Source: a virus. Taken from it: a stretch of 56,489 bases of DNA. Below are positions 6,673 to 44,213 of this stretch, piece by piece. The position numbers and the translations under genes are program-made. The DNA lies in the IMG/VR virus record IMGVR_UViG_3300042475_003016, positions 1 to 56,489 of that record; one strand, 5' to 3'. The stretch's first letter is position 1, and each line of letters starts with the position of its first letter. A model generated the notes under the pieces. That model was not told where the DNA came from, searched no databases, and was given only the letters and a program-made list of their open reading frames with translations.

Positions 6673-6867
6673 TTAAAACTTGTTCCACATCATTAACCTT
6701 AAATTAAGTCTAGTGGGATTAACAACTTGTCCAATCTGGTCATCCAAAACCAAATTCAATTTACTTGATATCCTAACCCGTAAGTTAATACCTATATTTA
6801 TTGGAGGTAGTTTATTGTGCAACCTATTGATGGGGAAACTAATTGCATCATATTCTGTGTTTTCCAT
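6673..6867 (-). CDS. small protein, array A member 15
   Basis: 64 aa from MENTEYD; an in-frame ATG 7 codons upstream is possible but overlaps the previous gene. Ends DDQIGQVVNPTRLNLRLMMWNKF. Last gene of the 15-gene tandem array, just before the PfkB kinase. Confidence 0.5.
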   Translation of the reverse strand: MENTEYDAISFPINRLHNKLPPINIGINLRVRISSKLNLVLDDQIGQVVNPTRLNLRLMMWNKF

Positions 6868-6871
6868 ATTT

Positions 6872-7048
6872 TCACAATTCATTAACATTTTGTATTTCAG
6901 TTATTATCATAGTCTGCGACCTAATTGGGATTGAAATGGTATGCCTAGCAATTCTAATCATTTCATCTGGAAGAATATTTCGCAACAACACAAAATTATT
7001 TGTCTGACATTCCACAACTTTAGCAATCTTTTGTTTAATGTTTTCCAT
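6872..7048 (-). CDS. small protein, array A member 14
   Basis: 58 aa, begins MENIKQKIAKVVECQ. Starts like its array neighbours and ends 4 nt before the next member. Middle section hydrophobic-rich but with no clear membrane helix. Confidence 0.5.
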   Translation of the reverse strand: MENIKQKIAKVVECQTNNFVLLRNILPDEMIRIARHTISIPIRSQTMIITEIQNVNEL

Positions 7049-7050
7049 CT

Positions 7051-7245
7051 TTATTTAAATTTACTCTTAATCCCAGACACCAAACTTCTGGTAGAATTAA
7101 AAACTATTTGATTCATTATTGGTAGAAGCATCATATCAATGCATTTTGTCCTTACATTTTTATCAACTATACTTGGAAGTATAGTTCTTTTCAAAGATAG
7201 TTTATTCCAAATTTTATTATATATTTTTTCTTCTATGTTTTTCAT
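7051..7245 (-). CDS. small protein, array A member 13
   Basis: 64 aa, begins MKNIEEKIYNKIWNKLSLKR; C-terminus LLPIMNQIVFNSTRSLVSG. ATGA overlap with the upstream member. Basic, helical appearance; family function unknown. Confidence 0.55.
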   Translation of the reverse strand: MKNIEEKIYNKIWNKLSLKRTILPSIVDKNVRTKCIDMMLLPIMNQIVFNSTRSLVSGIKSKFK

Positions 7246-7418
7246 ATATGAACAGCATTAATTCCTGCATTTGATATCTCATCCTTAATTTTGTAATATG
7301 TTTTATCTCTTACATGACTACATGATTTTTTTGCTGTATTACTTTCAACTATATACTTTAAATTGTTCTCCAGTAAATACCACAATTGTTTGCCAATATG
7401 TTGCTTAACATTTTTCAT
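7242..7418 (-). CDS. small protein, array A member 12
   Basis: 58 aa, begins MKNVKQHIGKQLWYLLENNL. ATGA overlaps at both ends (start inside member 11 stop, stop inside member 13 start). Confidence 0.5.
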   Translation of the reverse strand: MKNVKQHIGKQLWYLLENNLKYIVESNTAKKSCSHVRDKTYYKIKDEISNAGINAVHI

Positions 7419-7588
7419 AGTTTTAAATTTTCTTTTGTAATATGAATTAATTGTGGATAGGTTATCAGCAATTTTTCTCTAACATCATTAGCCAATTCAG
7501 TTTCCACATTTTCATCCACTGTATTACTTAATTTAATCTCAAGTAAATAAAATATTTGATTGAGTATTTTTGTTTTAACATTTCTCAT
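7415..7588 (-). CDS. small protein, array A member 11
   Basis: 57 aa, begins MRNVKTKILNQIFYLLEIKL, so it resembles member 12 in its first 20 residues (N-V-K ... Q-x-x-Y-L-L-E). ATGA overlaps both sides. Confidence 0.5.
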   Translation of the reverse strand: MRNVKTKILNQIFYLLEIKLSNTVDENVETELANDVREKLLITYPQLIHITKENLKL

Positions 7589-7791
7589 ATTTTCACGCTA
7601 GTTTTCACATCAAATAACAAAGGTTCCACTTGTTCAGAAACTGACATAAGCAATCTTCCATATATTTTAATATGCAAATCAGTTGTTATTTTGTTTAGCA
7701 ACTCATTTTGAATGAACTTTCTGTCATATCCTGGTGGATTACCCCGACTGGTCAATATTTCAAAAGAAATAATATCTAAAATATTTTTCAT
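7585..7791 (-). CDS. small protein, array A member 10
   Basis: 68 aa, begins MKNILDIISFEILTSRGNPP. C-terminal half LHIKIYGRLLMSVSEQVEPL matches member 9 (LYMQVSGRIFIPLSEQIGNT), showing common descent. Confidence 0.55.
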   Translation of the reverse strand: MKNILDIISFEILTSRGNPPGYDRKFIQNELLNKITTDLHIKIYGRLLMSVSEQVEPLLFDVKTSVKI

Positions 7792-7808
7792 TTTTTAAAT
7801 TTTTAGTA

Positions 7809-8030
7809 TTAAAAAAATGATTTATCATACACTCTATCTTGTATTTGTTCAAACATTGTATTACCTATTTGTTCAGATAATGGAATGAATATTCTTCCAG
7901 ATACTTGCATATATAATTCATTTGATGTTTTCTTAATTAATTTATTTTGAATTACCGTATTATTACGCTTGTTAATATCTAAACGGATAGTCCATATATC
8001 ATAACCAATACTTCCTGATATATTTTGCAT
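7809..8030 (-). CDS. small protein, array A member 9
   Basis: 73 aa, begins MQNISGSIGYDIWTIRLD. Shares the pattern N-E-L-Y-M-Q-V-S-G-R-I-F-x-P-L-S-E-Q-I with members 8 and 10. Confidence 0.55.
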   Translation of the reverse strand: MQNISGSIGYDIWTIRLDINKRNNTVIQNKLIKKTSNELYMQVSGRIFIPLSEQIGNTMFEQIQDRVYDKSFF

Positions 8031-8032
8031 TT

Positions 8033-8230
8033 TTAAATTTTGTTAGTATTAAAAGTTATTTGCCTATTTGGTTCATAAGTGCTTGTTTCAATCTGTTCAG
8101 CAATTGGCTTATTTAAACCAGCAGATACTCTCATAAAAAGATTATATGATGTTTCTTCCCTTAACTCTGTTTTAAGATCCAAATTGTGTAAAGCCAATCT
8201 AATGTTAATATTAAACTGAATATTCCTCAT
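8033..8230 (-). CDS. small protein, array A member 8
   Basis: 65 aa, begins MRNIQFNINIRLALHNLD; core SYNLFMRVSAGLNKPIAEQI is the same module seen in members 9 and 10. Its start overlaps the stop of member 7 (ATGA). Confidence 0.55.
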   Translation of the reverse strand: MRNIQFNINIRLALHNLDLKTELREETSYNLFMRVSAGLNKPIAEQIETSTYEPNRQITFNTNKI

Positions 8231-8397
8231 TGTCCAGTTAGTTTTAGTTTAATTTCTTTTTTTTCAATCATAGGTATGAATTTTGTCTCCTTATCCACTT
8301 GAATTCTGATAATACCAGGAATATAATCCATTGTTCTATAAACCATTCGCATAATTAATTGGTTTACTTTAACTTCTATATTAATAGCGTTTTTCAT
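8227..8397 (-). CDS. small protein, array A member 7
   Basis: 56 aa, begins MKNAINIEVKVNQLIMRMVY. Lys-rich C-terminus. ATGA overlap with member 8. Confidence 0.5.
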   Translation of the reverse strand: MKNAINIEVKVNQLIMRMVYRTMDYIPGIIRIQVDKETKFIPMIEKKEIKLKLTGQ

Positions 8398-8587
8398 AAT
8401 TTATTTTTCGTATTGATAACCTGAATAAATTTTCATTCACTTGTTCATATATGGGTGCTAATATATATTTTTGGACAACTATCCTAGACCAAGGATTATT
8501 GTGTAATTTTTTTGTAATTATATTACTAATTTCACATCTAACATTGTTCTGGACATTAAATATAATATCACCGTTGACTTTAACCAT
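8381..8587 (-). CDS. small protein, array A member 6
   Basis: 68 aa from MVKVNGDIIFNVQNNVRCEI; an ATG 3 codons upstream (8596) is equally possible. Overlaps member 7 by 17 nt. Carries YILAPIYEQVNENLFRLS, again the P-x-x-E-Q module. Confidence 0.5.
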   Translation of the reverse strand: MVKVNGDIIFNVQNNVRCEISNIITKKLHNNPWSRIVVQKYILAPIYEQVNENLFRLSIRKINYEKRY

Positions 8588-8759
8588 AATATACATTTTC
8601 TGTTACTTGTATATAGAATTTATCTCTCATTTGACCACATAATATATCACCCACTTTGTCCCATGCTTTAATTCTTGCTGGGGTGCTCACTTTCTCACTC
8701 ATTCGAAAAACTAATTGATTTCCTACCCGACAACCCACTCTTTCATATACATTCTTCAT
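8580..8759 (-). CDS. small protein, array A member 5
   Basis: 59 aa, begins MKNVYERVGCRVGNQLVFRM; centre TPARIKAWDKVGDILCGQM matches the W-x-K/Q-V motif of array B members. ATGA overlap with member 4. Confidence 0.55.
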   Translation of the reverse strand: MKNVYERVGCRVGNQLVFRMSEKVSTPARIKAWDKVGDILCGQMRDKFYIQVTENVYYG

Positions 8760-8920
8760 GATTTTACATTTTGTTTTAATTGCGCCAATAATTGATTAGA
8801 TGCTTGAACCCATACTTGATTGCCTATTTTATTCCATGCTTGATTCCATAATTTACCCTCCACTTGAACCACTAGTTTACTTCCTACTTGTTCTCTCACT
8901 TTACTTATTATATTTGTCAT
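8756..8920 (-). CDS. small protein, array A member 4 (QV-repeat type)
   Basis: 54 aa, begins MTNIISKVREQVGSKLVVQV. Almost entirely four-residue x-x-Q-V/A units (LWNQAWNKIGNQVWVQASNQ), the clearest case of the repeat in this array. Expected to form an amphipathic rod or solenoid-like helix. Confidence 0.6.
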   Translation of the reverse strand: MTNIISKVREQVGSKLVVQVEGKLWNQAWNKIGNQVWVQASNQLLAQLKQNVKS

Positions 8921-9111
8921 ATTATTTTAGAATTTTGCTTAACTGAAATAAGATTACTCTCAACTAAAACAAATAACGGATTAAAGACTTGTGTTGCCAC
9001 TTGAATTTGAAGTTCATACCCAACCTGGACATCAACTTGATTTCCTATAAACCGCCTAATTTTCTCCCCCACTTCCACCAATATTTGTTCACTAACATTC
9101 ACCATATTCAT
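8917..9111 (-). CDS. small protein, array A member 3 (QV-repeat type)
   Basis: 64 aa, begins MNMVNVSEQILVEVGEKI; core GNQVDVQVGYELQIQVATQV shows alternating Q-V. Start could be M3. Confidence 0.55.
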   Translation of the reverse strand: MNMVNVSEQILVEVGEKIRRFIGNQVDVQVGYELQIQVATQVFNPLFVLVESNLISVKQNSKII

Positions 9112-9287
9112 TTTAATTTAAAATTATTCAAAACTTGTGCAAACACTCGGCTAGCCAATAAGTTATTCATAACACTCATACATTCAATGTAATATATTTT
9201 CTTCCACTCATAGGATAATTTGGATAACAACACATATTGTAAATTAATATTTAATTGATTTTTTTTTCCAATATTTGTTATTTTCAT
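9108..9287 (-). CDS. small protein, array A member 2
   Basis: 59 aa, begins MKITNIGKKNQLNINLQYVL, ends LLASRVFAQVLNNFKLK. The ending resembles that of member 1 (RLYNQVLANLKLK). Confidence 0.5.
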   Translation of the reverse strand: MKITNIGKKNQLNINLQYVLLSKLSYEWKKIYYIECMSVMNNLLASRVFAQVLNNFKLK

Positions 9288-16624: not shown

Positions 16625-16753
16625 TAGTCAGGACAGGACTTGAACCTATATCTCCAAATCACAGGCACCTGGAACTTTCTCCCATCAATGAGGTTGATTA
16701 CTTCTCACTCTAAAGTTACTCCTTCTTGCGTCTTCCAATTCCGCCACCTGACT
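16625..16753 (-). ncRNA. tRNA-Leu-like RNA a, rebuilt anticodon domain
   Basis: 129 nt. Acceptor AGTCAGG/CCTGACT, Leu-type D arm (TGGCGGAATTGG ... GACGC), T arm ATAGG-TTCAAGT-CCTGT, A73. Between D and T arms are ~80 nt instead of ~35, with helices AACTTT/AAAGTT and ATCAA-CCTCA-TTGAT and no standard 7-nt anticodon loop on a 5-bp stem. Confidence 0.7.
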
Positions 16754-18802: not shown

Positions 18803-18879
18803 TAGTCAGGACAGGATTCGAACCTGTATCCACCCGTCATCTAACGGAGTGCCTCTGTCTCCAATTCAGCCACCTGACT
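18803..18879 (-). ncRNA. tRNA-Leu-like RNA e (shortest member)
   Basis: 77 nt. Acceptor AGTCAGG/CCTGACT, D arm with CTG-AATTGGAGA-CAG, T arm ACAGG-TTCGAAT-CCTGT, A73. In the anticodon position is CAC, bulged T, CCGT, loop TAGATG, ACGG, GTG: seven pairs and a 6-nt loop, not a 5-bp stem with 7-nt loop. Own promoter 15 nt upstream. Confidence 0.65.
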
Positions 18880-20068: not shown

Positions 20069-20274
20069 AAATAAATAAGTCTCTTGCATGTTCACCACGC
20101 TTGTAGATTTTACTGAACATAGTTTACTGTTCACCTGTTATGAGTGCACCATAGAGCAGGGTCCATCACATACTCTCTTGGGACATTTACACTTCAATTG
20201 GGCAGCTACTCCCGTGAAGCCAAGAGTTATTTAAACGGTGCTAATCCGTTATATGTAAGAGAACTTATTTATTT
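20069..20274 (-). ncRNA. candidate structured RNA 2 with 17-bp closing helix
   Basis: 206 nt, starting 2 nt after tRNA-like RNA f and so on its transcript. Closed by 12 bp + bulged T + 5 bp (ends AAATAAATAAGT/ACTTATTTATTT and CTCTT/AAGAG). Inside: AACGG-ATTAGCA-CCGTT; CTCTTGG/CCAAGAG enclosing CTTCA/TGAAG and GGG/CCC; TGAACA/TGTTCA. No ORF or tRNA arms. The closed, branched layout is typical of a stable functional RNA. Confidence 0.65.
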
Positions 20275-20788: not shown

Positions 20789-20902
20789 TAGTCAGGGTAG
20801 GATTTGAACCTACAATTTGGTGTCAGTCATAAACTGATTGCTTATTCTGTTGTGGAGTTCTTTGCTCCACCGAACCTGCGTTTACCATTCCGCCACCTAA
20901 CT
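20789..20902 (-). ncRNA. tRNA-Leu-like RNA g, rebuilt anticodon domain
   Basis: 114 nt. Acceptor AGTTAGG/CCTGACT, D arm TGGCGGAATGGTAAACGC, T arm GTAGG-TTCAAAT-CCTAC, A73. GGTTCGGTG can pair with CACCAAATT across the centre, with inner hairpins GTGGAG-CAAAGAA-CTCCAC (alternative) and TCAGT-TTATG-ACTGA. Confidence 0.7.
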
Positions 20903-21139: not shown

Positions 21140-21352
21140 TTACAAAGATAAATCAAAGTTTCCAGAATTACAAATATTTCCTTTAACTTTACCAGCAACA
21201 TTAATTGATATTAACTCCCTCAAATCTGACCTCAATACAGAACTTACTTTTGCACCAGTATATGCACCTGTATAACTAAATACTCTTAACCATGCTGGAT
21301 CAGCAATATTTTTACTCACCTTAATCAAAACTGTATTTTGAATATTTTTCAT
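21140..21352 (-). CDS. small protein, array B member 14
   Basis: 70 aa, begins MKNIQNTVLIKVSKNIADPAWLR; the D-P-A-W motif matches members 9 and 1. The last ~12 codons overlap the next promoter, so its C-terminus may be shaped by regulatory sequence. Confidence 0.5.
   Translation of the reverse strand: MKNIQNTVLIKVSKNIADPAWLRVFSYTGAYTGAKVSSVLRSDLRELISINVAGKVKGNICNSGNFDLSL
21143..21174 (-). promoter_or_regulatory. Bacteroidota-type promoter
   Basis: Minus strand: TTTG, 20 bp, TATCTTTG, embedded in the 3' end of array B member 14; serves the 67-aa gene and tRNA-like RNA g. Confidence 0.75.
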
Positions 21353-21546
21353 AATTTTATATTTTGTTGTATACTACTTAATTGTCTTGACATCTGGACG
21401 CGTACTTCATTTTTTATCTGTTTCCAGATTTCAAAATATTCTTTATACCCTAATTGGTCACATGCTTGACTATTTACCTCCCCAGAACGTAAAGAGGCTA
21501 CTTGGTCAAATAAATAATCATCTATATGTTTACCTACATTTATCAT
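21349..21546 (-). CDS. small protein, array B member 13
   Basis: 65 aa, begins MINVGKHIDDYLFDQVASLR; ends KNEVRVQMSRQLSSIQQNIKL. ATGA overlaps on both sides. Confidence 0.55.
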   Translation of the reverse strand: MINVGKHIDDYLFDQVASLRSGEVNSQACDQLGYKEYFEIWKQIKNEVRVQMSRQLSSIQQNIKL

Positions 21547-21731
21547 GACTTTATGTTTTGACCTACTTCATAAAATAATTGATTATTTATTTGACTATCT
21601 ATTTGATTCTGTACTTGTTCCAATACTTGACTTCTTACCATATCTATAACTTTATTCATTACTTGATCCCATATTGACACATTTACTTTATGAGATACTT
21701 GCCCCTCTACTTGATTTCTTACGTTCAACAT
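21543..21731 (-). CDS. small protein, array B member 12 (QV-repeat type)
   Basis: 62 aa from MLNVRNQVEGQVSHKVNV, matching the usual array start; a longer reading to 21770 runs into member 11. Nearly all four-residue x-x-Q-V units (MVRSQVLEQVQNQIDSQINN). Confidence 0.55.
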   Translation of the reverse strand: MLNVRNQVEGQVSHKVNVSIWDQVMNKVIDMVRSQVLEQVQNQIDSQINNQLFYEVGQNIKS

Positions 21732-21916
21732 AAATTTACGTTTTTTTTCATTTCCTTTGTTAAGAGCCAAACTACTTGTCTATTTATTCCATGTCCTAAT
21801 TTAGCTGAACACTTTGCCCAAACTTTACAACTTACTTTATAATACATTTCACCCCATAGTTTGTTCCGTATGTGACTACTTACATTATTGCTAATTTCAA
21901 TATCTAAATTCTTCAT
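21725..21916 (-). CDS. small protein, array B member 11
   Basis: 63 aa, begins MKNLDIEISNNVSSHIRNKLW; contains three Cys. Overlaps members on both sides. Confidence 0.55.
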   Translation of the reverse strand: MKNLDIEISNNVSSHIRNKLWGEMYYKVSCKVWAKCSAKLGHGINRQVVWLLTKEMKKNVNLC

Positions 21917-22100
21917 AATTTCTTGTTTTTTGTCTAACTTGTTCCCATACTTGACTACTAACTTGATTTTTTAATTGTCCCTCTGCATGGCTACGTACCT
22001 GGTTAACCACTTTAACACTTACTAAATCCATTATTTTGATATGCATTTTGTTGACTAAAAAATAACATATTTGTTCTTCTAACTTGTCTGCAATCCTCAT
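21897..22100 (-). CDS. small protein, array B member 10 (QV-repeat type)
   Basis: 67 aa, begins MRIADKLEEQICYFLVNKM; C-terminal half VVNQVRSHAEGQLKNQVSSQV then WEQV repeats. Confidence 0.55.
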   Translation of the reverse strand: MRIADKLEEQICYFLVNKMHIKIMDLVSVKVVNQVRSHAEGQLKNQVSSQVWEQVRQKTRNYEEFRY

Positions 22101-22104
22101 AACT

Positions 22105-22302
22105 TTACATTTTTTTTACTTGATTATGTACTTGAAGCCTTATTCGAGAATATAATTGAACATCTATCTGATTTGTTGTTTTGTCCCTTAATATGTAACC
22201 TACCTTACTAGCTACTCTTTCATTTACTTTATCCAGCAATTTAATTTTACCCCTTATTTTAGCCCATAATTCTTTGGATACTTGACTTCCTAAATTCCAC
22301 AT
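22105..22302 (-). CDS. small protein, array B member 9
   Basis: 65 aa, begins MWNLGSQVSKELWAKIRGKI; ends LYSRIRLQVHNQVKKM. Not preceded by an ATGA overlap but spaced 12-13 nt into the previous gene. Confidence 0.55.
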   Translation of the reverse strand: MWNLGSQVSKELWAKIRGKIKLLDKVNERVASKVGYILRDKTTNQIDVQLYSRIRLQVHNQVKKM

Positions 22303-22475
22303 AATTTCACGTTTTGTTTCACTTGACTAAGTACTTCATTTGATAATCTAGTATTTATTTGGTCTCTCAATTTAAAATATATTTTAATTGGTATATTACT
22401 GGCTACTACACCCCAAACTTGTCCTCTGAAATTAGTATATATTTTATCCATTACTTGTTTATCTACATTTTCCAT
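22290..22475 (-). CDS. small protein, array B member 8
   Basis: 61 aa, begins MENVDKQVMDKIYTNFRGQVW; ends LSNEVLSQVKQNVKLCGI. Confidence 0.55.
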   Translation of the reverse strand: MENVDKQVMDKIYTNFRGQVWGVVASNIPIKIYFKLRDQINTRLSNEVLSQVKQNVKLCGI

Positions 22476-22479
22476 ACTT

Positions 22480-22671
22480 TTATTTTAATTTGTTGCGTAA
22501 TGATAGAGTTAATTGCCAAGATATGTTCCATATTTGAAAATTCAAATTTTCTCCAACCCCAACCCATATTTTATCACTCAATTTGTTGTAAAACTTTTCC
22601 CCTAATTTACTATGCACACTTTCTGCTTCTTTATCAAAAATAATATTGACTTGACCACTTACATCTTTCAT
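22480..22671 (-). CDS. small protein, array B member 7
   Basis: 63 aa, begins MKDVSGQVNIIFDKEAESVH; centre KLGEKFYNKLSDKIWVGVGE resembles members 1 and 4 (SDxxWxKL/V). Confidence 0.55.
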   Translation of the reverse strand: MKDVSGQVNIIFDKEAESVHSKLGEKFYNKLSDKIWVGVGENLNFQIWNISWQLTLSLRNKLK

Positions 22672-22856
22672 ATTTCCATATTTTTTCTTATAACTAGTTT
22701 TACAGGATTTAATACTCTTTCTCTATCTTCTACTATATTAGATATTTTAATCTGTGCTTTCAGCCAAGCTGCATTACCAACTTTTGGCCATAATGGATAT
22801 ATTATTTTACTAGATAGGTGATTTGAAAACACCCCTCCCATATTTTTCATACTCAT
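22668..22856 (-). CDS. small protein, array B member 6
   Basis: 62 aa, begins MSMKNMGGVFSNHLSSKI; P-L-W-P-K-V-G-N-A-A-W core. Start could be M3. Confidence 0.5.
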   Translation of the reverse strand: MSMKNMGGVFSNHLSSKIIYPLWPKVGNAAWLKAQIKISNIVEDRERVLNPVKLVIRKNMEI

Positions 22857-23061
22857 TTTTTTCTGAATTTGGAATAATTAAATTTTCTTGAACTGGATTC
22901 ATCATTTGACTTCTAACTTGTTCAAATATGTCAGAATGCAAATGACTAGTTACATTACTTATTAAAGGGAATATAGCTACATTTCTAAATCTGTCGTATA
23001 ATGGTCTTCTTATAACCATTTGAATTGTTCTTTCTAGTTCATTCTCCTTCCGTATCATCAT
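22810..23061 (-). CDS. small protein, array B member 5
   Basis: 83 aa, longest of the array; a later start (MVIRRPLYDRF) is possible. HSDIFEQVRSQMMNPVQENLI is nearly the same as in members 2 and 4, showing recent duplication. Overlaps member 6 by 47 nt. Confidence 0.5.
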   Translation of the reverse strand: MMIRKENELERTIQMVIRRPLYDRFRNVAIFPLISNVTSHLHSDIFEQVRSQMMNPVQENLIIPNSEKNEYEKYGRGVFKSPI

Positions 23062-23269
23062 AATAATTTTTCTCTGGATACAAAATAATTAAATTTTCTT
23101 GAATTGGCAACATTAATTGATTCCTCACTTGCTCAAAAACATCATAATACAAATGATTTGCTACATTATGTTTTGAATTATAATGAAGCCTATTACTTAA
23201 TTCATCATATAATATTTTTCTAACCCGGGTTGGGATTACTTTTTCCACTCTATACATTACATTTATCAT
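23039..23269 (-). CDS. small protein, array B member 4
   Basis: 76 aa, begins MINVMYRVEKVIPTRVRKIL; YYDVFEQVRNQLMLPIQENLI repeats the module of members 5 and 2. Confidence 0.55.
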   Translation of the reverse strand: MINVMYRVEKVIPTRVRKILYDELSNRLHYNSKHNVANHLYYDVFEQVRNQLMLPIQENLIILYPEKNYYDDTEGE

Positions 23270-23271
23270 GT

Positions 23272-23481
23272 TTATTTTTTATAATCCCCTAATTTAATAC
23301 TTTGCATACCTACCATCACTGCTTCTTGTCCTTGGTTATCAGATAGTGGTATCCAAATTCTATCAGCAAGTTTGAACCATAATGAATCTGAAATTCCATT
23401 ATTGACTTTAACCCCCATTGTACTTTTGACTTTAATGTGAAATTGGTTATATAATTCATCACCAATATTTTTCATAGTCAT
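23272..23481 (-). CDS. small protein, array B member 3
   Basis: 69 aa, begins MTMKNIGDELYNQFHIKVKS; duplicates member 1 along most of its length (VxNxISDxxWxKxxxRIWxPxS ... NQGQ). Confidence 0.55.
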   Translation of the reverse strand: MTMKNIGDELYNQFHIKVKSTMGVKVNNGISDSLWFKLADRIWIPLSDNQGQEAVMVGMQSIKLGDYKK

Positions 23482-23684
23482 TTTTCTTCTGGATTTGGAA
23501 TAATTAAATTTAGTTGCATTGATTCCATTAATTGATGTCTAACTTGTTCAAGAATGTCACGATGCAAATCACCAGTAATACCACTTTTTGGATTATACGC
23601 AAATATAAACCTGATATCACTATTTAATAGTTTTCTTACCCTCGTTGAAATTACGTTATCCACTCTATCCATTATATTTATCAT
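23478..23684 (-). CDS. small protein, array B member 2
   Basis: 68 aa, begins MINIMDRVDNVISTRVRKLL; HRDILEQVRHQLMESMQLNLI. Paralogue of members 4 and 5; the pair 1-2 looks like a duplicate of the pair 3-4. Confidence 0.55.
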   Translation of the reverse strand: MINIMDRVDNVISTRVRKLLNSDIRFIFAYNPKSGITGDLHRDILEQVRHQLMESMQLNLIIPNPEEK

Positions 23685-23878
23685 ACTTTAAGATTGTATT
23701 CAACTCCAATTAATGCGTGTTGACCCTGGTTATTTAATTTCACAGATATTGGTCTCCAAATTCTTATTGAAACTTTATGCCAAACTGGATCTGAAATTTT
23801 AGAATGAACTTTGCCACCCAATACACTTTTGGCTCTAATGTGAAATTGATTGCATAATTCAGAACCAATATTTTCCAT
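23681..23878 (-). CDS. small protein, array B member 1
   Basis: 65 aa, begins MENIGSELCNQFHIRAKSVLG; SDPVWHKVSIRIWRPISVKL. First gene of the 14-gene array, following tRNA-like RNA h on the same strand. Confidence 0.55.
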   Translation of the reverse strand: MENIGSELCNQFHIRAKSVLGGKVHSKISDPVWHKVSIRIWRPISVKLNNQGQHALIGVEYNLKV

Positions 23879-23893
23879 ATATTTTAATTTTAG

Positions 23894-24019
23894 TGGTCAG
23901 GACAGGATTCGAACCTGCATACACTTCGGAGACTATCCGCTGGATGATCTGTAATGAGGTAAAGTGTATTCATATCCAGTACATACCCCATTAGCGTCTA
24001 CCAATTCCGCCACCTGACC
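23894..24019 (-). ncRNA. tRNA-Leu-like RNA h with pseudoknotted centre
   Basis: 126 nt. Acceptor GGTCAGG/CCTGACC, textbook Leu D arm TGGCGGAATTGGTAGACGC, T arm GCAGG-TTCGAAT-CCTGT, A73. After the D stem, TAATGGGGTA pairs with TACCTCATTA (10 bp, one G-T), and ATACACTT, directly before the latter strand, pairs with AAGTGTAT beside the T stem (8 bp perfect), giving an H-type pseudoknot. A further CTGGAT/ATCCAG match links the loops. No anticodon loop. Confidence 0.75.
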
Positions 24020-28701: not shown

Positions 28702-29088
28702 TTAGTCAATCACTCGCTTCTTTGTATTCTCCAGAGGGTCAAACCTGGTCTGGATATCAACATAATACTTGCCAGGGGGGACAATTGTGTGGCGGTGATC
28801 CTTCTTCGGAATTACAACCGCTTTATCCATAGTTGCTACACCATTTAGTTCAGATTGTAATGAGTGGTTTAATATGCACTCCTCGTGTGCATCAATCACA
28901 AACCCACCACCATCAACCTCATAAATGTCGTATGAACCAAATAGGGCGTGGAATGAACCACTTCTTTCGGATGCAGCAATATATTGCTTTTCCACCTTAT
29001 TCAATCCCTTTGGGAGTTCAGTTAGTTTAAACATCTGAACATCACCTTGATGTAAGGCTACATTGTCAAATTTCATCTTGCTTTTCAT
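28702..29088 (-). CDS. conserved phage protein (HQGDVQ family)
   Basis: 128 aa from MKSKMKFDNVALHQGDVQMFKL. HQGDVQ, then HALFGSYDIYEVDGGGFVIDAHEECILNH and KDHRHTIVPPGKYYVDIQTRFDP: the pattern of a small beta-barrel (cupin-like) protein common in phages of many hosts. Conserved His residues suggest a metal or ligand site. Role unknown. The upstream 20 codons are not conserved. Confidence 0.7.
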   Translation of the reverse strand: MKSKMKFDNVALHQGDVQMFKLTELPKGLNKVEKQYIAASERSGSFHALFGSYDIYEVDGGGFVIDAHEECILNHSLQSELNGVATMDKAVVIPKKDHRHTIVPPGKYYVDIQTRFDPLENTKKRVID

Positions 29089-29116
29089 AATAATAATTTT
29101 TTGTTTTTTAAAATGT

Positions 29117-30070
29117 TTAGTTTGCTGAATACCACTTATAATCAACACTCATTGGAACTTTACTTGGTCTATGCCATTTGGCGCACTTCACCGCATCTGT
29201 AAAAGTTGGGCAGGTATCAATCAGATAAACTGATTTGGTAGATGGACAAGTGAACTCAATCCAGGCATATGGTTGATCCATTTCACCTTTGCTGTTTTGC
29301 AAAAATGGATATGATGTCTTTGATTGATATATTCTAATTATCTCATCATAACCACCAACATGCTTAACAGTTTTCTCATCAATTACTACCGCATCCAGCA
29401 TTTCTAACAATCCTTCATTACCAAACTTATCTTTGATTATTGTTATGATTGCTGCCCTAATATCCTCATTGGTGTTATTGTGGAATGCAATTTTGGCATT
29501 AATTATATTCTCACACTCATTGAAAATTTCTGGTTCAATAAACCTACCATTCACATAGTGCTGACCATAACCATCAGCAAACTCTATGGCAAACCCATCA
29601 ACAGAATGCAAATCATTATTGGCATTTCTTTTAATGCTTTTTGGGTATTTTGAAACCACACAAACTTTATCCATCTGGATTTGTAAGTATGAGTTCTCCA
29701 CACACTCAACAATCAAATTATAATTATCTCTAAACTCATCAAGAATGTCAAAGTTGTCAAAGAAAAATTCATAGAATGCCAACCAAGATATATCATCAGC
29801 ATTAATGTAAGATGAAAAGGATTCAAACACAGGCTTTTCATTACCCATCAACTCATTGACTTTCAACTGACAAGCCATAGGACTATCAACCAGAATAACT
29901 TCTGGCTCTTCCAATCCACAAAACTTATATAACTTCTTCATTGCAGCAATTGCCTTTTCTTCATTATGATTCTGATAGAACTCATAACTAAATATCTTGG
30001 CCAACCATTTATCTTTGTAATGGTCAAGTTTTGCTTCTTGCTCTGGTGTTAGATTCTCAATTTTTTCCAT
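29117..30070 (-). CDS. DUF6745-like protein
   Basis: 317 aa. Starts LTPEQEAKLDHYKDKWLAKIF and has AAMKKLYKFCGLEEPEVILVDSPMACQL, the pattern of the DUF6745 family found in bacteria and phages, often beside leucine-rich proteins. C-terminal beta-rich part with DGYGQHYVNGRFIEPE. Cytoplasmic; biochemical role unknown. Confidence 0.7.
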   Translation of the reverse strand: MEKIENLTPEQEAKLDHYKDKWLAKIFSYEFYQNHNEEKAIAAMKKLYKFCGLEEPEVILVDSPMACQLKVNELMGNEKPVFESFSSYINADDISWLAFYEFFFDNFDILDEFRDNYNLIVECVENSYLQIQMDKVCVVSKYPKSIKRNANNDLHSVDGFAIEFADGYGQHYVNGRFIEPEIFNECENIINAKIAFHNNTNEDIRAAIITIIKDKFGNEGLLEMLDAVVIDEKTVKHVGGYDEIIRIYQSKTSYPFLQNSKGEMDQPYAWIEFTCPSTKSVYLIDTCPTFTDAVKCAKWHRPSKVPMSVDYKWYSAN

Positions 30071-35034: not shown

Positions 35035-35579
35035 ATGATTTGATTTAATATTTTTTCAACTGTTTTATCATCAACATATATTGATTCATACTTAACCTCA
35101 TATGAATTCAACATATCTTTTATTTCTTTATCAATCATTTTTGATTCTTCTAATGTCTGAAATCTCTCACCCCCATCATAAGATGAATTTAAATTTCGTT
35201 CCAGAAAATAATTTATATTGTCGTATCTATTAAATAGATTAAAAATAAAAGCATTAAATTCTTTGCCATATAAAGATGATATGAAATCTCCCTCTTTTTT
35301 ATATTTCTCCTTATAAACAAGAGCAAATAAGATGGGTGAATCACATACCACAAAATCAACCTTACCATAGGATCTCACAATATTCCTATGCTGGTTTGCT
35401 GTGATATAGAACTGATCCTTTATTGCTCCCATATTTTCATCCCAGGCTAGGTTCTTGGGAAATTCGTATGGATTGTCAGCACTAATGTGTTGCTTCTTTA
35501 ATTCATACATTAACCCACTAGCAATTGTGCTTTTGCCAGCACCAGGACCAGCAAATAAGTTTATTATTTTTGTTTGCAT
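35031..35579 (-). CDS. P-loop NTPase, nucleotide/nucleoside-kinase-like
   Basis: 182 aa. Walker A LFAGPGAGKST (8-18), then VVCDSPILFALVY (~76-88, Walker-B-like D-S-P), and a C-terminal RFQTLEESKMIDKEI. Matches small ATPase/kinase proteins of the AAA_28 type common in phages. Substrate unknown. Follows the first leucine-rich cluster on the transcript. Confidence 0.7.
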   Translation of the reverse strand: MQTKIINLFAGPGAGKSTIASGLMYELKKQHISADNPYEFPKNLAWDENMGAIKDQFYITANQHRNIVRSYGKVDFVVCDSPILFALVYKEKYKKEGDFISSLYGKEFNAFIFNLFNRYDNINYFLERNLNSSYDGGERFQTLEESKMIDKEIKDMLNSYEVKYESIYVDDKTVEKILNQII

Positions 35580-36316
35580 TATCTATATATTCTGTTAACC
35601 CCAGTTCTAATTATGCCCTGCTTTATTTTGCCAGGATATATCATTTCTTTTAAATCTTCATCTGAATACTCTTCTAATGGTGTATTATATATACTTAACC
35701 ATCTACCAACTTTCAATCCTTTTGGTAATGAGGCTATTTTTGTATCATCCAATAATAATTCACCCCAAACTTCCAATCCTTCAGGTAAAGAAGTAATTGC
35801 TGATCCAGTTAAATCTAAATTACCCCAAACCATTATTTTTTTTGGTAATGAAGTTAATTTTTTGCAATTACTTAAATATAAATCATCATGTATTTCCAAT
35901 CCTTCTGGTAATGAGGTTAATTCCGTACAACCATTTAGGATTAATTCACCACCAACATCCAAATTTTCAGGTAATGATGTTATTTTTGTAGATGCTAAAT
36001 TCAAACGACCCCCAACTTGTAATCCATCTGGTAAGGAGGTTATATTTGTTTGAGCCAATTCTAAATTCATAGAAACATACAAATCTTCTGGTAAAGAAGT
36101 TAATTGTTTGCAACGATACAAATCCAAAGTCCCAAAAACCATCAATCCCTCTGGTAAGGAGGTTATATTTGAGTTTTCTAAATCCAAATCAGCCTTAATA
36201 GTTAATTCATCCTCTGTTAGGGGCTCATTATTTAATAACTTCCATTTGAATGGTTTATTTTTATTATCATTCTTTTCAAGAAAATCAATTATATTCTTTA
36301 TTGTTTCTTTTTCCAT
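35579..36316 (-). CDS. LPEGL leucine-rich-repeat protein, cluster 1 member 6
   Basis: 245 aa. N-terminal 45-residue module KETIKNIIDFLEKNDNKNKP-FKWKLLNNEPLTEDEL, then seven to eight ~22-residue repeats of the form T/K-I-T-S-L-P-E-G-L-x-V-G-G-x-L-x-L, then a C-terminal cap YSDEDLKEMIYPG. Longest of its cluster. Bacterial LRR of this type form a curved beta-solenoid used for binding. Overlaps neighbours by 1 nt. Confidence 0.8.
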   Translation of the reverse strand: MEKETIKNIIDFLEKNDNKNKPFKWKLLNNEPLTEDELTIKADLDLENSNITSLPEGLMVFGTLDLYRCKQLTSLPEDLYVSMNLELAQTNITSLPDGLQVGGRLNLASTKITSLPENLDVGGELILNGCTELTSLPEGLEIHDDLYLSNCKKLTSLPKKIMVWGNLDLTGSAITSLPEGLEVWGELLLDDTKIASLPKGLKVGRWLSIYNTPLEEYSDEDLKEMIYPGKIKQGIIRTGVNRIYR

Positions 36317-36723
36317 TATTTAAATATTTCTCCTTCTATAAATCCAGGTTTAATCATCTCTATTAATTCGTCATCTGAAAGTTTTGCTAATGGAGTATCT
36401 GTAATAATTAAATTTCCCCCAACTTTCAACCCTTCTGGTAATGATTTTATATCTGAATGGGTTAATGATAAATAACCCCCAATTTCCAAGCCTTTTGGTA
36501 AAAATTTAAAAATATAACAACCATCTAAATCCAAATTGCCCTCAACTTTTAATCCTTCTGGTAATGAGGTTATTTTTGTATATTGTAAAAGCAAATTACC
36601 TTTAACTTTTAAGTCTTCTTTTGAAAATGGGATATTATTTTCCAATTTCCATATAAATGGTGCTTTTATATTATCATTCTTTTCAAGGAAATTAAATATA
36701 TTCTTTAATGCTTCTTTTTTCAT
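36316..36723 (-). CDS. LPEGL leucine-rich-repeat protein, cluster 1 member 5
   Basis: 135 aa. Same N-module (KEALKNIFNFLEKNDNIKAP), about three repeats, and cap LSDDELIEMIKPGFIEGEIF. Shortest of the cluster, so repeat number varies freely. 4-nt overlap with member 4. Confidence 0.75.
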   Translation of the reverse strand: MKKEALKNIFNFLEKNDNIKAPFIWKLENNIPFSKEDLKVKGNLLLQYTKITSLPEGLKVEGNLDLDGCYIFKFLPKGLEIGGYLSLTHSDIKSLPEGLKVGGNLIITDTPLAKLSDDELIEMIKPGFIEGEIFK

Positions 36724-37253
36724 CCTCCTCTATATATTGTCCATTCTATAAATCCAGGTTTAATCATTTCTCTTAATTCATCATCTGTGTATTTTTGTAA
36801 TTTTGTGCCCCTTATGTTTAAATTCCAACCAACTTCTAACCCTTTTGGTAATAAAGTTATTTCTTTACAATATGATAAATCCAAACTTCCCCCAATACTT
36901 AATCCTTCTGGCAATGATTCTATGTCTGACTGTGCTAAAGATAAAAAACCATTAACTTGTAAGTCTTTTGGTAATGAGGTTATTTTTGTACCAGCTAAAG
37001 ATAAAAAACCCCCAACCTTCAAGCCTTCTGGTAAGGTTCTTATTTCTGAACCATCTAAATCCAAATCACCTCTAACCTTCAAGCCTTCTGGTAAGGTTCT
37101 TATTTTTGTATCACTTAAATTCAAATTACCTCTAACATCCAAATCTTCTTCTGTAAAAGGTTCTTTATTTAATAATTTCCATTTAATAGATGATTTATTA
37201 TCTTCTTTTTCAAGAAAATGCATTATGCTCTTTAATGTTTTTTTATCCATCAT
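36720..37253 (-). CDS. LPEGL leucine-rich-repeat protein, cluster 1 member 4
   Basis: 177 aa. N-module KKTLKSIMHFLEKEDNKSS, five repeats with two adjacent near-identical units (IRTLPEGLKVRGDLDL), and cap YTDDELREMIKPGFIEWTIY. Confidence 0.78.
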   Translation of the reverse strand: MMDKKTLKSIMHFLEKEDNKSSIKWKLLNKEPFTEEDLDVRGNLNLSDTKIRTLPEGLKVRGDLDLDGSEIRTLPEGLKVGGFLSLAGTKITSLPKDLQVNGFLSLAQSDIESLPEGLSIGGSLDLSYCKEITLLPKGLEVGWNLNIRGTKLQKYTDDELREMIKPGFIEWTIYRGG

Positions 37254-37780
37254 CTATATATTTTTCCTTTTATAAACCCCGGTTTAATCATTTCTTTTAA
37301 TTCAGCATCTGAAAGTTTTTTTAATGGAGTATGTCTAATAATTAATGGTCCCAAAACTTTTAACCCTTTTGGTAATAATGTTAAATTTGTGCAAGCTTCT
37401 AATTGTAAAGTATTAACTTTCAATCCTTCTGGTAAGGATGTTAAACTTGTGCAACCATATAAATATAAATTACCCCCAACATCCAAGTCTTCTGGTAATG
37501 AGGTTAATTCTGTGCAATTTGATAAATCCAAATCAATCCCAACACTTAATCCTTCTGGTAATGATGTTATTTTTGAATAATCTAAATCCAAATTACCCTT
37601 AACTTTTAATCCTTTTGGTAATGAGGTTATTTTTGAAAAATGCAAATTCAAATTACCCTTAAAATTTAATTCTTCTTTTGTTAATGACATCTCACTCATA
37701 AATTTCCCCATAAGTGGTGTTTTTATCTTATCATTCTTTTCAAGGAAATTAAATATGTTCTTTAATGCTTCTTTTTCCAT
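37250..37780 (-). CDS. LPEGL leucine-rich-repeat protein, cluster 1 member 3
   Basis: 176 aa. N-module KEALKNIFNFLEKNDKIKTP, then repeats that include C-T-x-L-T-S-L-P type units, and cap LSDAELKEMIKPGFIKGKIY. 4-nt overlap with member 4. Confidence 0.78.
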   Translation of the reverse strand: MEKEALKNIFNFLEKNDKIKTPLMGKFMSEMSLTKEELNFKGNLNLHFSKITSLPKGLKVKGNLDLDYSKITSLPEGLSVGIDLDLSNCTELTSLPEDLDVGGNLYLYGCTSLTSLPEGLKVNTLQLEACTNLTLLPKGLKVLGPLIIRHTPLKKLSDAELKEMIKPGFIKGKIYR

Positions 37781-38307
37781 TATCTAATTATATCTCCTTT
37801 TATATATCCAGGTTTAATCATTTCTCTTAATTCATCATCTGAATATTTTAATAATGACATATCCCTAATAAATAAATCACCCCCAACTTGCAAACCTTTT
37901 GGTAAGTTATTTACTTCTGATTGAGATAGAAATAACCTGCCCCCAACTTGCAAACCTTTTGGTAATGATTCTACAGAGGAATCTTCCAAATCCAAATAAC
38001 CACCAACTTGCAAATCTTCTGGTAATGATGTTATTTTTGTTTTTCTTAAATTCAAATAACCCCCAACTTTCAATCCATCTGGTAATGATTCTACAGAAGA
38101 ATCTTCCAAATCCAAATTACCACCAACTTTTAATCCTTTTGGGAATGTAGGTATATTGGTGAATCGTAAATATAAATGACCATTAACATTTAAATCTTCC
38201 TCTGTTATTGGTTCATTATTATTATTTAATTTCCAAATAAGTGGTGTTTTTATGTTATCATTCTTTTCAAGGAAATTAAATATGTTCTTTAATGTTTCTT
38301 TATTCAT
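37780..38307 (-). CDS. LPEGL leucine-rich-repeat protein, cluster 1 member 2
   Basis: 175 aa. N-module KETLKNIFNFLEKNDNIKTP, repeats containing two copies of DLEDSSVESLPxGLxVGG, which marks an internal duplication, and cap YSDDELREMIKPGYIKGDII. Confidence 0.78.
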   Translation of the reverse strand: MNKETLKNIFNFLEKNDNIKTPLIWKLNNNNEPITEEDLNVNGHLYLRFTNIPTFPKGLKVGGNLDLEDSSVESLPDGLKVGGYLNLRKTKITSLPEDLQVGGYLDLEDSSVESLPKGLQVGGRLFLSQSEVNNLPKGLQVGGDLFIRDMSLLKYSDDELREMIKPGYIKGDIIR

Positions 38308-38723
38308 CCTCTGTATATATCTCCTTTTAAAAATCCTGGTTTAACCATTTCTCTTAATTCTTCATCTGTGTATTCTTTTAATGGTGATTCATAAATGTAT
38401 AAAATACCACCAACCTTCAAGCCTTTTGGTAATGAATTTAATTCTGTATACATTAAATTAAAATCACCCCCAACTTCCAATCCTTCTGGTAATGATTCTA
38501 TTTTTGAAGAACCTAAAGACATCCATCCCCCAACTTTCAATCCTTCTGGTAATGATGTTATTTCTGAAGACTTTAAGTCCAAATTACCTTTAACATTCAA
38601 ATATTCTTTATTTAATGGCTCATTAAATGTCAACTTCCATTTTAACCCATATTTGTGTTTAGATTTTTTCCCCTCCTCTTCTTCAAGGAAATTAAATATG
38701 TTCTTTAATGTTTCTTTTTCCAT
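38304..38723 (-). CDS. LPEGL leucine-rich-repeat protein, cluster 1 member 1
   Basis: 139 aa. N-module KETLKNIFNFLEEEEGKKSK, three repeats, cap YTDEELREMVKPGFLKGDIY. First gene of cluster 1, with a TATTTAT motif 14 nt upstream, so the whole six-gene cluster is probably late-expressed. Confidence 0.78.
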   Translation of the reverse strand: MEKETLKNIFNFLEEEEGKKSKHKYGLKWKLTFNEPLNKEYLNVKGNLDLKSSEITSLPEGLKVGGWMSLGSSKIESLPEGLEVGGDFNLMYTELNSLPKGLKVGGILYIYESPLKEYTDEELREMVKPGFLKGDIYRG

Positions 38724-38761: not shown

Positions 38762-39859
38762 TTAATCCTTCTGTTTTAACAAGAATTTGTTGCTAATTGC
38801 TTTGAATGAAATAACACTATCAGTTGATCTAATAACAATACCCTCACGCTCAAATTTATCATTCAATTCAGATTTGCCTTCAGCATATTTTAGCAAATCT
38901 TCAATAGTTTCTGGTAAGAATGAACCAGAAATAAAACTCAACACAGGAACCATGTCAAACCCCATTCTTGCAATCATTAATGCTAATTCGCTATAATCCA
39001 TTTTTGACCTTTTGTCAATATCAAAACCAGAAAAGAACTTGACAGTTTGTCCTTTTATCTTATATGGATTACCCTGGATGCCCTCGCCAATCAACTCCCC
39101 TTGGATGGCAACATTAGCATTTAATGCCCTTAATTTTTCCTCAATACCCATTTCTCTTGCTACCTTCCAGTAAGTATTATCCTCACTTTCAAGCAAATCC
39201 AAATTTCTTGAACAAACCCCAAACTCACCATTATTAATATAGAATGTTGCAGATGATCCATCCAATTTTTCTGTGATATAAAAATCAAAATGATTTTTTC
39301 TCCAATCAATATATTCGTCTTTCAAATTCTGAACCCTCTCCTCATCTGTTTTTGATAAAAATGATGGAAATTGACCCTTAACCAATCCTTGTAAGTTGGC
39401 TGGGATTGGCTTATCATATTTAATAATTCCCAAAAGATTTGTAACATCAACCCCAGGCTCAAGAAGTAATGCATTATCATAAGGTCCAAGTTGGAATTGC
39501 TCACCCCAAGGTTGCTTTGAAATGCCAACCACCATCTCTGGGTCAGTTTTTGAGTTTAATACCTCAAGTTTCAACAACAAGCCTTGGGATAATTGACCCC
39601 TTAATCTAATTGTCTTTAATCTGAATCCCTCTTGATCCAACATCTTGGTATAAGATGATTTTCGGAGAAATTCAAACTCTTCCCTTATTGGTAAAAAAGA
39701 ATCAATCTCACAATATACAACCAATTCACCAATAAAGTAATTCTGGTCTTTTGCAACCACAACTGACCAGCCATCAACAATGGCCAATTCAATATTATCA
39801 GCCCCCTCAATTTGCTTAATCTCATCTATTTTTCTTATTGTTGCTAGTTTTCTTGACAT
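38762..39859 (-). CDS. RNA ligase, Rnl5/DRB0094 type
   Basis: 365 aa from MSRKLATIRKIDEI; 25 codons upstream encode a Cys/His-rich non-conserved stretch. N-terminal OB-fold region (residues 1-100), then nucleotidyltransferase motifs: TEKLDGSS with Lys198 as adenylation site, FGVCSRNLDL (motif III), AIQGELIG (IV), GIVIRS (near V) and SFKAISNKFLLK (V). This order, N-terminal OB before the catalytic core, is that of Deinococcus RNA ligase (Rnl5), which seals nicks with an RNA 3'-OH. Likely part of RNA repair with the second ligase at 41167. Confidence 0.88.
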   Translation of the reverse strand: MSRKLATIRKIDEIKQIEGADNIELAIVDGWSVVVAKDQNYFIGELVVYCEIDSFLPIREEFEFLRKSSYTKMLDQEGFRLKTIRLRGQLSQGLLLKLEVLNSKTDPEMVVGISKQPWGEQFQLGPYDNALLLEPGVDVTNLLGIIKYDKPIPANLQGLVKGQFPSFLSKTDEERVQNLKDEYIDWRKNHFDFYITEKLDGSSATFYINNGEFGVCSRNLDLLESEDNTYWKVAREMGIEEKLRALNANVAIQGELIGEGIQGNPYKIKGQTVKFFSGFDIDKRSKMDYSELALMIARMGFDMVPVLSFISGSFLPETIEDLLKYAEGKSELNDKFEREGIVIRSTDSVISFKAISNKFLLKQKD

Positions 39860-39900
39860 TTTATTTTTTTTTTGATGCAAGTGTAATACAATTTTTTTAA

Positions 39901-39928
39901 CCCCCACCCAGAAATTTGGGCAGGGGCA
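39901..39928. other. GC-rich stem-loop
   Basis: CCCCCACCCA and TGGGCAGGGG pair with one mismatch around a 6-nt loop, between the 88-aa gene and the Rnl5 gene. No T run follows on the minus strand, so it may be a weak terminator or an mRNA stabiliser. Confidence 0.5.
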
Positions 39929-39936
39929 TTTCATAA

Positions 39937-41147: not shown

Positions 41148-41179
41148 CAAAGTTAATATACCCCAATCACATTTCCAAA
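41148..41179 (-). promoter_or_regulatory. Bacteroidota-type promoter
   Basis: Minus strand: TTTG, 20 bp, TAACTTTG, upstream of duplicate copy 1. Confidence 0.75.
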
Positions 41180-42234
41180 TATCTTTTCAAAAAAAGTGAA
41201 TTATTATTTAAAGCCTTTGCAAAATCTGGCTTCACCAAATCCCATATGTATTTTTCATAATCCCTCCCATCAAGCATAGAAAATAATATGGAAGGATAAG
41301 CATATTCTTTTGTCCTTATTGCAAAATCTTTTCTGGTTAAACATTCTTCTTCAAGCCTTGCAAAGATTTTTAAGTGATCCTCTTTTATCCTGGAAAAATC
41401 CTCATTTAACCCCCTTACAGTCTCTCTAACCCACCCATCAAACTCATCTGGTATTCTATCCAACAATTCAGAGAAATTGCCCCCAGACCTCAATACGTCC
41501 CAAATAGAAGTAGTGGATATGTTGGTTAATATTCTATGTAATCTAACATACTCTTCTCCCTTTATTTTCATTCTCATTCCAGATTTGAACCTTATGACAA
41601 ATCCTTCAGCATCATTAGGTATGATGGCTTTTAATTTAGCAAAATCATTAACCCCATCATATTTATTAACCAAATCAAACCCTTCAAGAGCCTCCAATTC
41701 AGTTCTATCAACCTCAATATTATTTGCAGTATTAAATGCCCCCAATAAAACTAACCCTTCATAATCCCCATAATTTACAACTATCACATTCCGTTTGTCT
41801 ATTATCTCAAATACGTAAGTGTTTCTAATATCCAATTTTTCCATAGGATATTTAACAAACATATGCCTTCCCATTTTTGCTTGGTCAGATGTGAAAGACC
41901 CCCTAGTTGCTATGTGCCACTCCCCAGCATAGAAAAATACTATACCACAAGATCCATCCATTTTCTCAAAAACATCAAAAGATTCATTTGGTATTTCATC
42001 AGCAGAATATTCCTCATAATTTTTGAACTTTGGAAACGGCCTCGCAACAACCTCCCCGGAATTGTCAGTAACAAGACCCCTGCAAGCCATGGTTATCTCA
42101 TCCCAGAAACCACCATATTGTACTTCCCTGGAATAGTTCCATATCACCAAAGGCAATTCTGGGTGTTCATTCTTAACCAACAACCCATCACCAACATATC
42201 TATCCAACAAAGCCAAATCCATTTTCATATTCAT
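41167..42234 (-). CDS. RNA ligase, T4 Rnl1 family
   Basis: 355 aa (T4 Rnl1: 374). EITMACRGLVTD and VARPFPKFKNYEE (~47-75), the adenylation motif VFEKMDGSCG with Lys91, GEWHIATRGSF (III), VFEIID (IIIa), EGFVIRF (IV) and MRMKIKGEEYV (V) match the T4 RNA ligase 1 class, followed by an all-helical C-terminal domain as in T4, where it gives preference for broken anticodon loops. It would join 5'-phosphate and 3'-OH RNA ends using ATP. Own two-box promoter, so early. Confidence 0.92.
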   Translation of the reverse strand: MNMKMDLALLDRYVGDGLLVKNEHPELPLVIWNYSREVQYGGFWDEITMACRGLVTDNSGEVVARPFPKFKNYEEYSADEIPNESFDVFEKMDGSCGIVFFYAGEWHIATRGSFTSDQAKMGRHMFVKYPMEKLDIRNTYVFEIIDKRNVIVVNYGDYEGLVLLGAFNTANNIEVDRTELEALEGFDLVNKYDGVNDFAKLKAIIPNDAEGFVIRFKSGMRMKIKGEEYVRLHRILTNISTTSIWDVLRSGGNFSELLDRIPDEFDGWVRETVRGLNEDFSRIKEDHLKIFARLEEECLTRKDFAIRTKEYAYPSILFSMLDGRDYEKYIWDLVKPDFAKALNNNSLFLKRYLEM

Positions 42235-43799: not shown

Positions 43800-44213
43800 T
43801 TAAAGGTAATGAATTCTCTTTAAATACCCATCATCTCCAACCATATTTCTTAATTCACCTTCACTATATTCACCTAATGGTGATGTACCAATATATAAAG
43901 TGCCACCAACTTTCAATCCTTTAGGTAATGAATATAATTGACTACAATCTTCTACAATCAAATTAAATCTAACTATTAACCCTTCTGGTAATGAACTTAT
44001 ATTTTCACAAAAAGTTAAGTTCAAATCACCTCTAACTATTAATCCTTCTGGTAATGATTCTATGTTTGAGTATGTTAAATCCAAATCACCATTAATATGT
44101 AAATCATCTTCTGTTAATGGTTCATTATTTAACCATTTCCACATAAATGGTGCTCTTATATTCTCCTCATTTTCAAGGAATTTGAATATGCTTCTTATTG
44201 TGTTTTTTTCCAT
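43800..44213 (-). CDS. LPEGL leucine-rich-repeat protein, cluster 2 member 6
   Basis: 137 aa. N-module KNTIRSIFKFLENEENIRAP, about three repeats (LPEGLIVRGDLNLTF), cap YSEGELRNMVGDDGYL, which differs from the usual IKPGFI form. Last of cluster 2. Confidence 0.75.
   Translation of the reverse strand: MEKNTIRSIFKFLENEENIRAPFMWKWLNNEPLTEDDLHINGDLDLTYSNIESLPEGLIVRGDLNLTFCENISSLPEGLIVRFNLIVEDCSQLYSLPKGLKVGGTLYIGTSPLGEYSEGELRNMVGDDGYLKRIHYL

Follow-up and report, generated by a model that had tools for sequence, protein, structure and literature searches.

Array B is a row of tandem cassettes that probably encode free-standing tetrad-repeat peptides (here termed QV peptides) as a split-off form of the xxQV insert of DUF6745 proteins, and that would act together with a DUF6745 core lacking this insert; the probability of this reading is roughly 0.6. 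The array lies in a 56,489-bp IMG/VR record, the whole of which is referred to as the window. Arrays of the same family occur in many phages, in the neighborhood of DUF6745 genes, and suggest a phage system of two parts, so far undescribed, whose components can be swapped. What is new is the split layout, for which the mechanism presented below is a proposal. In the literature searched (open access, with most subscription journals outside that scope), DUF6745 is not mentioned and no description of such arrays was found.

Organization of array B

Array B comprises 14 minus-strand open reading frames (ORFs) within positions 21140-23878, each starting with ATG and encoding 61-83 amino acids (aa), and neighboring ORFs are joined mostly by 4-nt (ATGA) or short overlaps. 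A second row of related genes, array A, lies elsewhere in the window. The genes are as follows, with E-values referring to an HMM of other phages:

B1, 23681..23878, minus strand: 65 aa; array B gene 1; paralog of B3 (z = 34)
B2, 23478..23684, minus strand: 68 aa; block LEQVRHQLM; paralog of B4
B3, 23272..23481, minus strand: 69 aa; duplicate of B1
B4, 23039..23269, minus strand: 76 aa; block FEQVRNQLM; duplicate of B2
B5, 22810..23061, minus strand: 83 aa; block FEQVRSQMM; third copy of the B2/B4 type
B6, 22668..22856, minus strand: 62 aa; E = 1.7e-5
B7, 22480..22671, minus strand: 63 aa; E = 2.2e-7
B8, 22290..22475, minus strand: 61 aa; E = 3.2e-13
B9, 22105..22302, minus strand: 65 aa; E = 3.5e-9
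B10, 21897..22100, minus strand: 67 aa; E = 6.5e-14
B11, 21725..21916, minus strand: 63 aa; E = 5.6e-10
B12, 21543..21731, minus strand: 62 aa; closest of all array B members to the canonical xxQV tetrad; E = 2.8e-13
B13, 21349..21546, minus strand: 65 aa; E = 8.1e-10
B14, 21140..21352, minus strand: 70 aa; final array B gene; E = 1.6e-4
Array A, 6673..9287, minus strand: 14 further members of the same family as array B

A preliminary description had reported 14 related small genes in array B, and the ORFs, Smith-Waterman z-scores, and HMMs bear this out. It had also taken array A to be of the same type; an HMM built from array B alone matches 9 of the 14 array A members at E < 0.01 (the best non-array ORF reaches 0.096). 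The location that it gave for array B, among tRNA-like genes, is matched by Rfam tRNA hits that flank the array exactly:

20789..20902, minus strand: tRNA-like gene with a long insertion; RF00005, 44.5 bits; 3' flank of array B
23894..24019, minus strand: tRNA-like gene with a long insertion; RF00005, 37.7 bits; 5' flank of array B
16625-16753, minus strand: tRNA-like gene with an insertion; above the Rfam cut-off
18803-18879, minus strand: tRNA-like gene; above the Rfam cut-off; called tRNA-??? by ARAGORN

The tRNA-like genes at 20789-20902, 23894-24019, and 16625-16753 are 114-129 nt long and were missed by ARAGORN. Other features of the window include a freshwater-1 sRNA (RF02979) at 20108-20170 on the minus strand (73.1 bits, cut-off 72), a phage-borne Hsp70 (DnaK) at 1047-2963, and two different RNA ligase family proteins at 38762-39934 and 41167-42234 (minus strand). 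Two LRR-like arrays, at 35579-38723 and 43800-47139 (minus strand), are also rows of tandem short genes that each carry a few repeat units; in contrast to array B, they have an unrelated repeat (SLPEGLKVGG) and a common N-terminal head of their own (M.KETLKNIFNFLE).

The tetrad repeat

In both arrays, hydrophobic residues recur at an exact 4-residue period. The power at 90 degrees is 5.6 for array B (shuffle maximum 2.05) and 4.2 for array A (shuffle maximum 2.37), and there is almost no power at the alpha-helical 100 degrees. Lying so far above the shuffles, the period sets the similarity of the genes apart from one of low-complexity composition only; together with the z-scores, the HMMs, and the control loci, it rules out chance or composition as the source of the array relationship. 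The repeat unit is [W/R/S]-[N/D/S]-[Q/K]-[V/I/L], which is clear in other phages and degenerate in the window (glutamine occupies tetrad position 3 in 18% of cases in the window arrays vs 44% in the arrays of other phages). The consensus of a whole QV peptide is M-K-(N/S)-(V/I)...[W/R/S]-[N/D]-Q-V repeated...QNIKL. A tetrad superperiod, which would hint at beta-solenoid coils, was looked for and is not clear (lag 3, z 2-3).

Membership in the family is also detected from outside the window. An HMM trained on the related phages L089-L094, with no window sequences, finds all 14 array B members at E <= 7.5e-4 and nine array A members at E < 0.01, and the best other ORF among the 252 searched scores 0.061. 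An HMM from the less related phages L349-L359 detects B12 (E = 1.8e-12) and A3 (E = 2.6e-10), with a mild bias in that its training members were picked by an HMM that included window sequences.

Searches of Pfam, PHROGs, NCBIfam, and PADLOC gave no convincing match for the array proteins, and no PF20530 (DUF6745) match was among them. PADLOC likewise had no match for B12, the DUF6745 protein, or the small QGDV gene described below, and B12 had no tblastn match among 50,697 phage records. One L359 member has a weak PADLOC match to Cas2 (E = 0.0016) in which no stretch passes on its own, and the assignment was rejected. The best matches to solved structures, ARID-domain protein 23fj (E = 3e-6) and P230 (E = 0.017), fall in the repeat region and are read as matches of repeat composition.

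Duplication within array B

Smith-Waterman z-scores, taken against composition-preserving shuffles, average 5.2 within array B and rise to 34 for both B2-B4 and B1-B3, 22 for B4-B5, and 20 for B2-B5. At the DNA level, the alignment of B1B2 with B3B4 spans 399 nt, gene junction included, with 76% identity and a score of 184 (the highest among 100 shuffles is 34); therefore the duplication took in one whole gene pair at once, as had been proposed for members 1-2 and 3-4. B5 is an additional copy of the second gene of the pair, and the block (L/F)EQVR.Q(L/M)M that B2, B4, and B5 were said to have in common is found in all three. These duplications had been called recent, which does not agree with a pair dS of about 0.42-0.54 and an aa identity of 49-52%.

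No clear similarity at the DNA level was seen among the remaining array B members tested, so pair duplication accounts only for B1-B5. Growth by tandem duplication of gene pairs thus holds for one pair and fails as a general mode; in related phages, the arrays change mainly as single cassettes are gained, lost, or fused in frame. Overall, the preliminary observation on array B is confirmed and its interpretation partly supported; it had overlooked the tetrad repeat, had not connected the genes with DUF6745, and had not seen how widespread such arrays are.

Arrays in other phages

The junction signature of array B (gene end, ATGA, next start) is present seven times in the window as against 0.46 expected (at most two mismatches). 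Run as a DNA pattern over IMG/VR, it revealed long arrays in four contigs, L089-L092, with 31, 24, 19, and 19 matches. A second pattern, QVxxQVxxQVxxQV, revealed additional phage arrays, whose consensus starts and ends are different (MKSVHKQ...HEISS; MTLQNKV...NDLTK; MISVKQQ...; MNIDDQV...), and independent arrays are present in ten further phage records. The commonest cassette junction is a 4-nt overlap (66 of 149).

DUF6745 and its tetrad insert

The window encodes one DUF6745 protein, followed by a small gene:

29117..30070, minus strand: DUF6745 protein; PF20530, 29.8 bits (cut-off 27); 317 aa, no tetrad run; proposed core partner
28702..29148, minus strand: 'HQGDVQ' gene; after DUF6745 here and in related phages

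The DUF6745 gene of the window is not adjacent to the arrays (about 5 kb from array B and 20 kb from array A). An array adjoins DUF6745 in most relatives, usually in what is the same operon, and in all four of the contigs L089-L092 the array abuts a DUF6745 gene and then the small 'HQGDVQ' gene. Among the array-bearing records, 12 of 17 carry DUF6745 (the window, 4 of 6 related records, and 7 of 10 others) vs 0 of 30 comparison viral contigs (Fisher p about 1e-7, with some of the records being near-duplicates). A small 'QGDV...HxH' gene also adjoins DUF6745 in phages of the insert type (L404 4194-4544, L436 768-1124, and L316 1621-1944) and therefore may belong to the core module.

In some DUF6745 proteins, tens of xxQV tetrads are inserted as a single stretch that separates the N-terminal part from the conserved core. 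Such inserts are widespread: a cyanobacterial DUF6745 has an xxQL form, that of a mycobacterial prophage (prophiGD102-1, L467, 1682-3127) contains 45 xxQL pairs, and that of a freshwater siphophage (MW202476, L462, 2359-3636) consists of xSSL tetrads. Insert-bearing DUF6745 is present in cellular genomes and prophages, and DUF6745 was found in 2 of 395 sampled Bacteroidota. The DUF6745 of Microcystis phages has no recognizable xxQV run and no array nearby. The tetrad unit and register of the inserts are the same as those of the array peptides; however, the insert repeats within one polypeptide, whereas the arrays consist of separate tandem mini-genes that neighbor a DUF6745 without an insert. 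The protein is insert-less in all 12 array phages that have it.

This alternation was also observed in a scan seeded with the DUF6745 core and blind to QV, in which 80 of 419 loci were classified and deduplicated at 85% identity into 46 clusters (11 insert-bearing and 35 insert-less). Free-standing QV genes are nearby in 0 of 11 insert-bearing vs 22 of 35 insert-less clusters (Fisher p = 2.4e-4). Of the QV genes, 120 lie on the DUF6745 strand and 7 on the opposite one, and the distance from DUF6745 to the nearest one is mostly about 110 bp or less, with several overlapping it; the same small-ORF criterion gave one match in 545 kb of control loci. Neither insert nor array is nearby in 13 of the 35 insert-less clusters, some of which have full 10-kb flanks and others cut-off flanks. 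A tree of the DUF6745 core places at least 5-6 changes of each label (array and insert) on well-supported branches; repeated switching between the two has therefore taken place. Five supported independent contrasts on this tree comprise none in the same direction, about three in the opposite direction, and about two with no difference, a result that agrees in direction with the cluster counts but is of low power and not significant by itself.

Cassette turnover and constraint

Contigs L090-L092 agree in the order of their cassettes, except that single cassettes have been gained or lost. In five other contigs (L368-L372), the flanks are 99.9-100% identical over about 9.7 kb, the 286-aa DUF6745 is the same, and the arrays differ by whole cassettes; one L372 cassette is an in-frame fusion of two cassettes that are neighbors in L368 and L370. 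Repeat misassembly could account for part of the array differences between contigs. The conserved cassette ends (M-K-N-V; Q-N-I-K-L) and the 4-nt overlaps fit a recombination between neighbors that keeps the frame.

Orthologous cassettes have a pooled pN/pS of 0.5-0.6, below 1 (Fisher p = 7e-4 and 8e-3 for the larger two of three comparisons; not significant for the third). Constraint on the duplicate pairs of the window is weak: their pN/pS is 0.6-0.8, third codon positions are not enriched for change, and the second codon position is the most conserved.

The near-neutral values of the window pairs, and the degenerate repeats of the window members, would be expected if the arrays were debris, that is, open but functionless pieces of an ancestral long QV-repeat gene broken by stops or frameshifts; tetrad coding, moreover, tends to remain open in several frames. 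This account is unlikely, as every cassette has its own ATG and is conserved at its start (M-K-N/S-V) and its end (QNIKL), and the predominance of the 4-nt junction, the recurrence of the layout in distant phages whose cassettes start and end differently, the pooled pN/pS of orthologous cassettes, and the retention of the exact 4-residue period all argue against it.

A proposed split repeat protein

Another improbable reading would make the QV peptides decoys or inhibitors that mimic the DUF6745 repeat of a host or rival phage and jam it, with the phage DUF6745 serving not as a scaffold but as a component for immunity or as a target. The presence of insert-bearing DUF6745 in cellular genomes and prophages, and peptide sets that are large, variable, and fast-changing, would suit such a conflict; against it, DUF6745 is rare in the sampled Bacteroidota, and nothing tested gave a sign of antagonism. 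It is very improbable that the arrays are a silent store donating repeats by gene conversion to an expressed DUF6745 insert, as pilS does to pilE, for although they recombine, lie next to DUF6745, and are built from its repeat unit, the adjacent DUF6745 has no insert to act as recipient and the cassettes have start codons and translational-coupling overlaps.

In the split-protein proposal, the QV peptides would correspond to the xxQV insert that many DUF6745 proteins carry within their chain, but would be encoded by genes of their own. The computed results in its favor are the family with its 4-residue period, the arrays in many phages, their closeness to DUF6745, the alternation of insert and array, and the cassette turnover; the distance of the window arrays from DUF6745, their degenerate repeats, the insert-less clusters with no array nearby, and the weak constraint on the window pairs speak against it. 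Once translated, they would supply the repeat domain in pieces, and the insert-less core (29117-30070) would physically assemble and work with a set of different peptides. Recombination would duplicate, delete, and fuse cassettes in frame, and the repertoire could change quickly because neighboring cassettes share their ends and 12-nt tetrad units. The variable repeats may adjust how the phage interacts with its host, for which counter-defense would be the most plausible purpose.

The clearest analog, and an analog only, is gp54 of mycobacteriophage Tweety, which contains 40-48 copies of a tetrapeptide encoded by 12 bp and whose copy-number changes tune counter-defense (PMC2884959, PMC9262239, PMC8549241). 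Like the QV system, gp54 is a phage tetrapeptide-repeat protein with 12-bp units; unlike the arrays, it is a single gene, with the repeat AA[GWQ][SY]. Homology of gp54 to DUF6745 was considered and rejected (no Pfam match; hhalign probability of 0.2% against the insert-bearing DUF6745 alignment). In T4, phage gene copy number can rise fast under defense through tandem amplification of tifA (PMC9391042), and anti-defense genes undergo tandem segmental amplification in the case of SegB (PMC13096335). In these cases, as in the arrays, phage gene copies are multiplied by recombination; the amplified copies, however, are recent, identical, and under selection, whereas the array cassettes are old, diverged, and permanent. 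From the precedents of Tweety gp54 and T4 copy number, counter-defense would be the leading guess for the role of the QV peptides. Among the papers searched, gp54 was the only phage tetrapeptide-repeat protein of known role to be found, which makes this idea directly testable.

A further, tentative step is the possibility that the peptides are interchangeable repeat subunits, diversified by recombination, that assemble combinatorially on the insert-less DUF6745 core into a variable binding surface used in conflict with the host or rival phages. If this is true, the arrays represent a repeat protein that has been divided among the genes of an evolving array. The split-protein proposal unites in one testable module two features that lack an explanation, orphan rows of mini-genes and an abundant domain of unknown function, and suggests a route by which small genes, shuffled as whole units, may give a phage new versions of a repeat protein.
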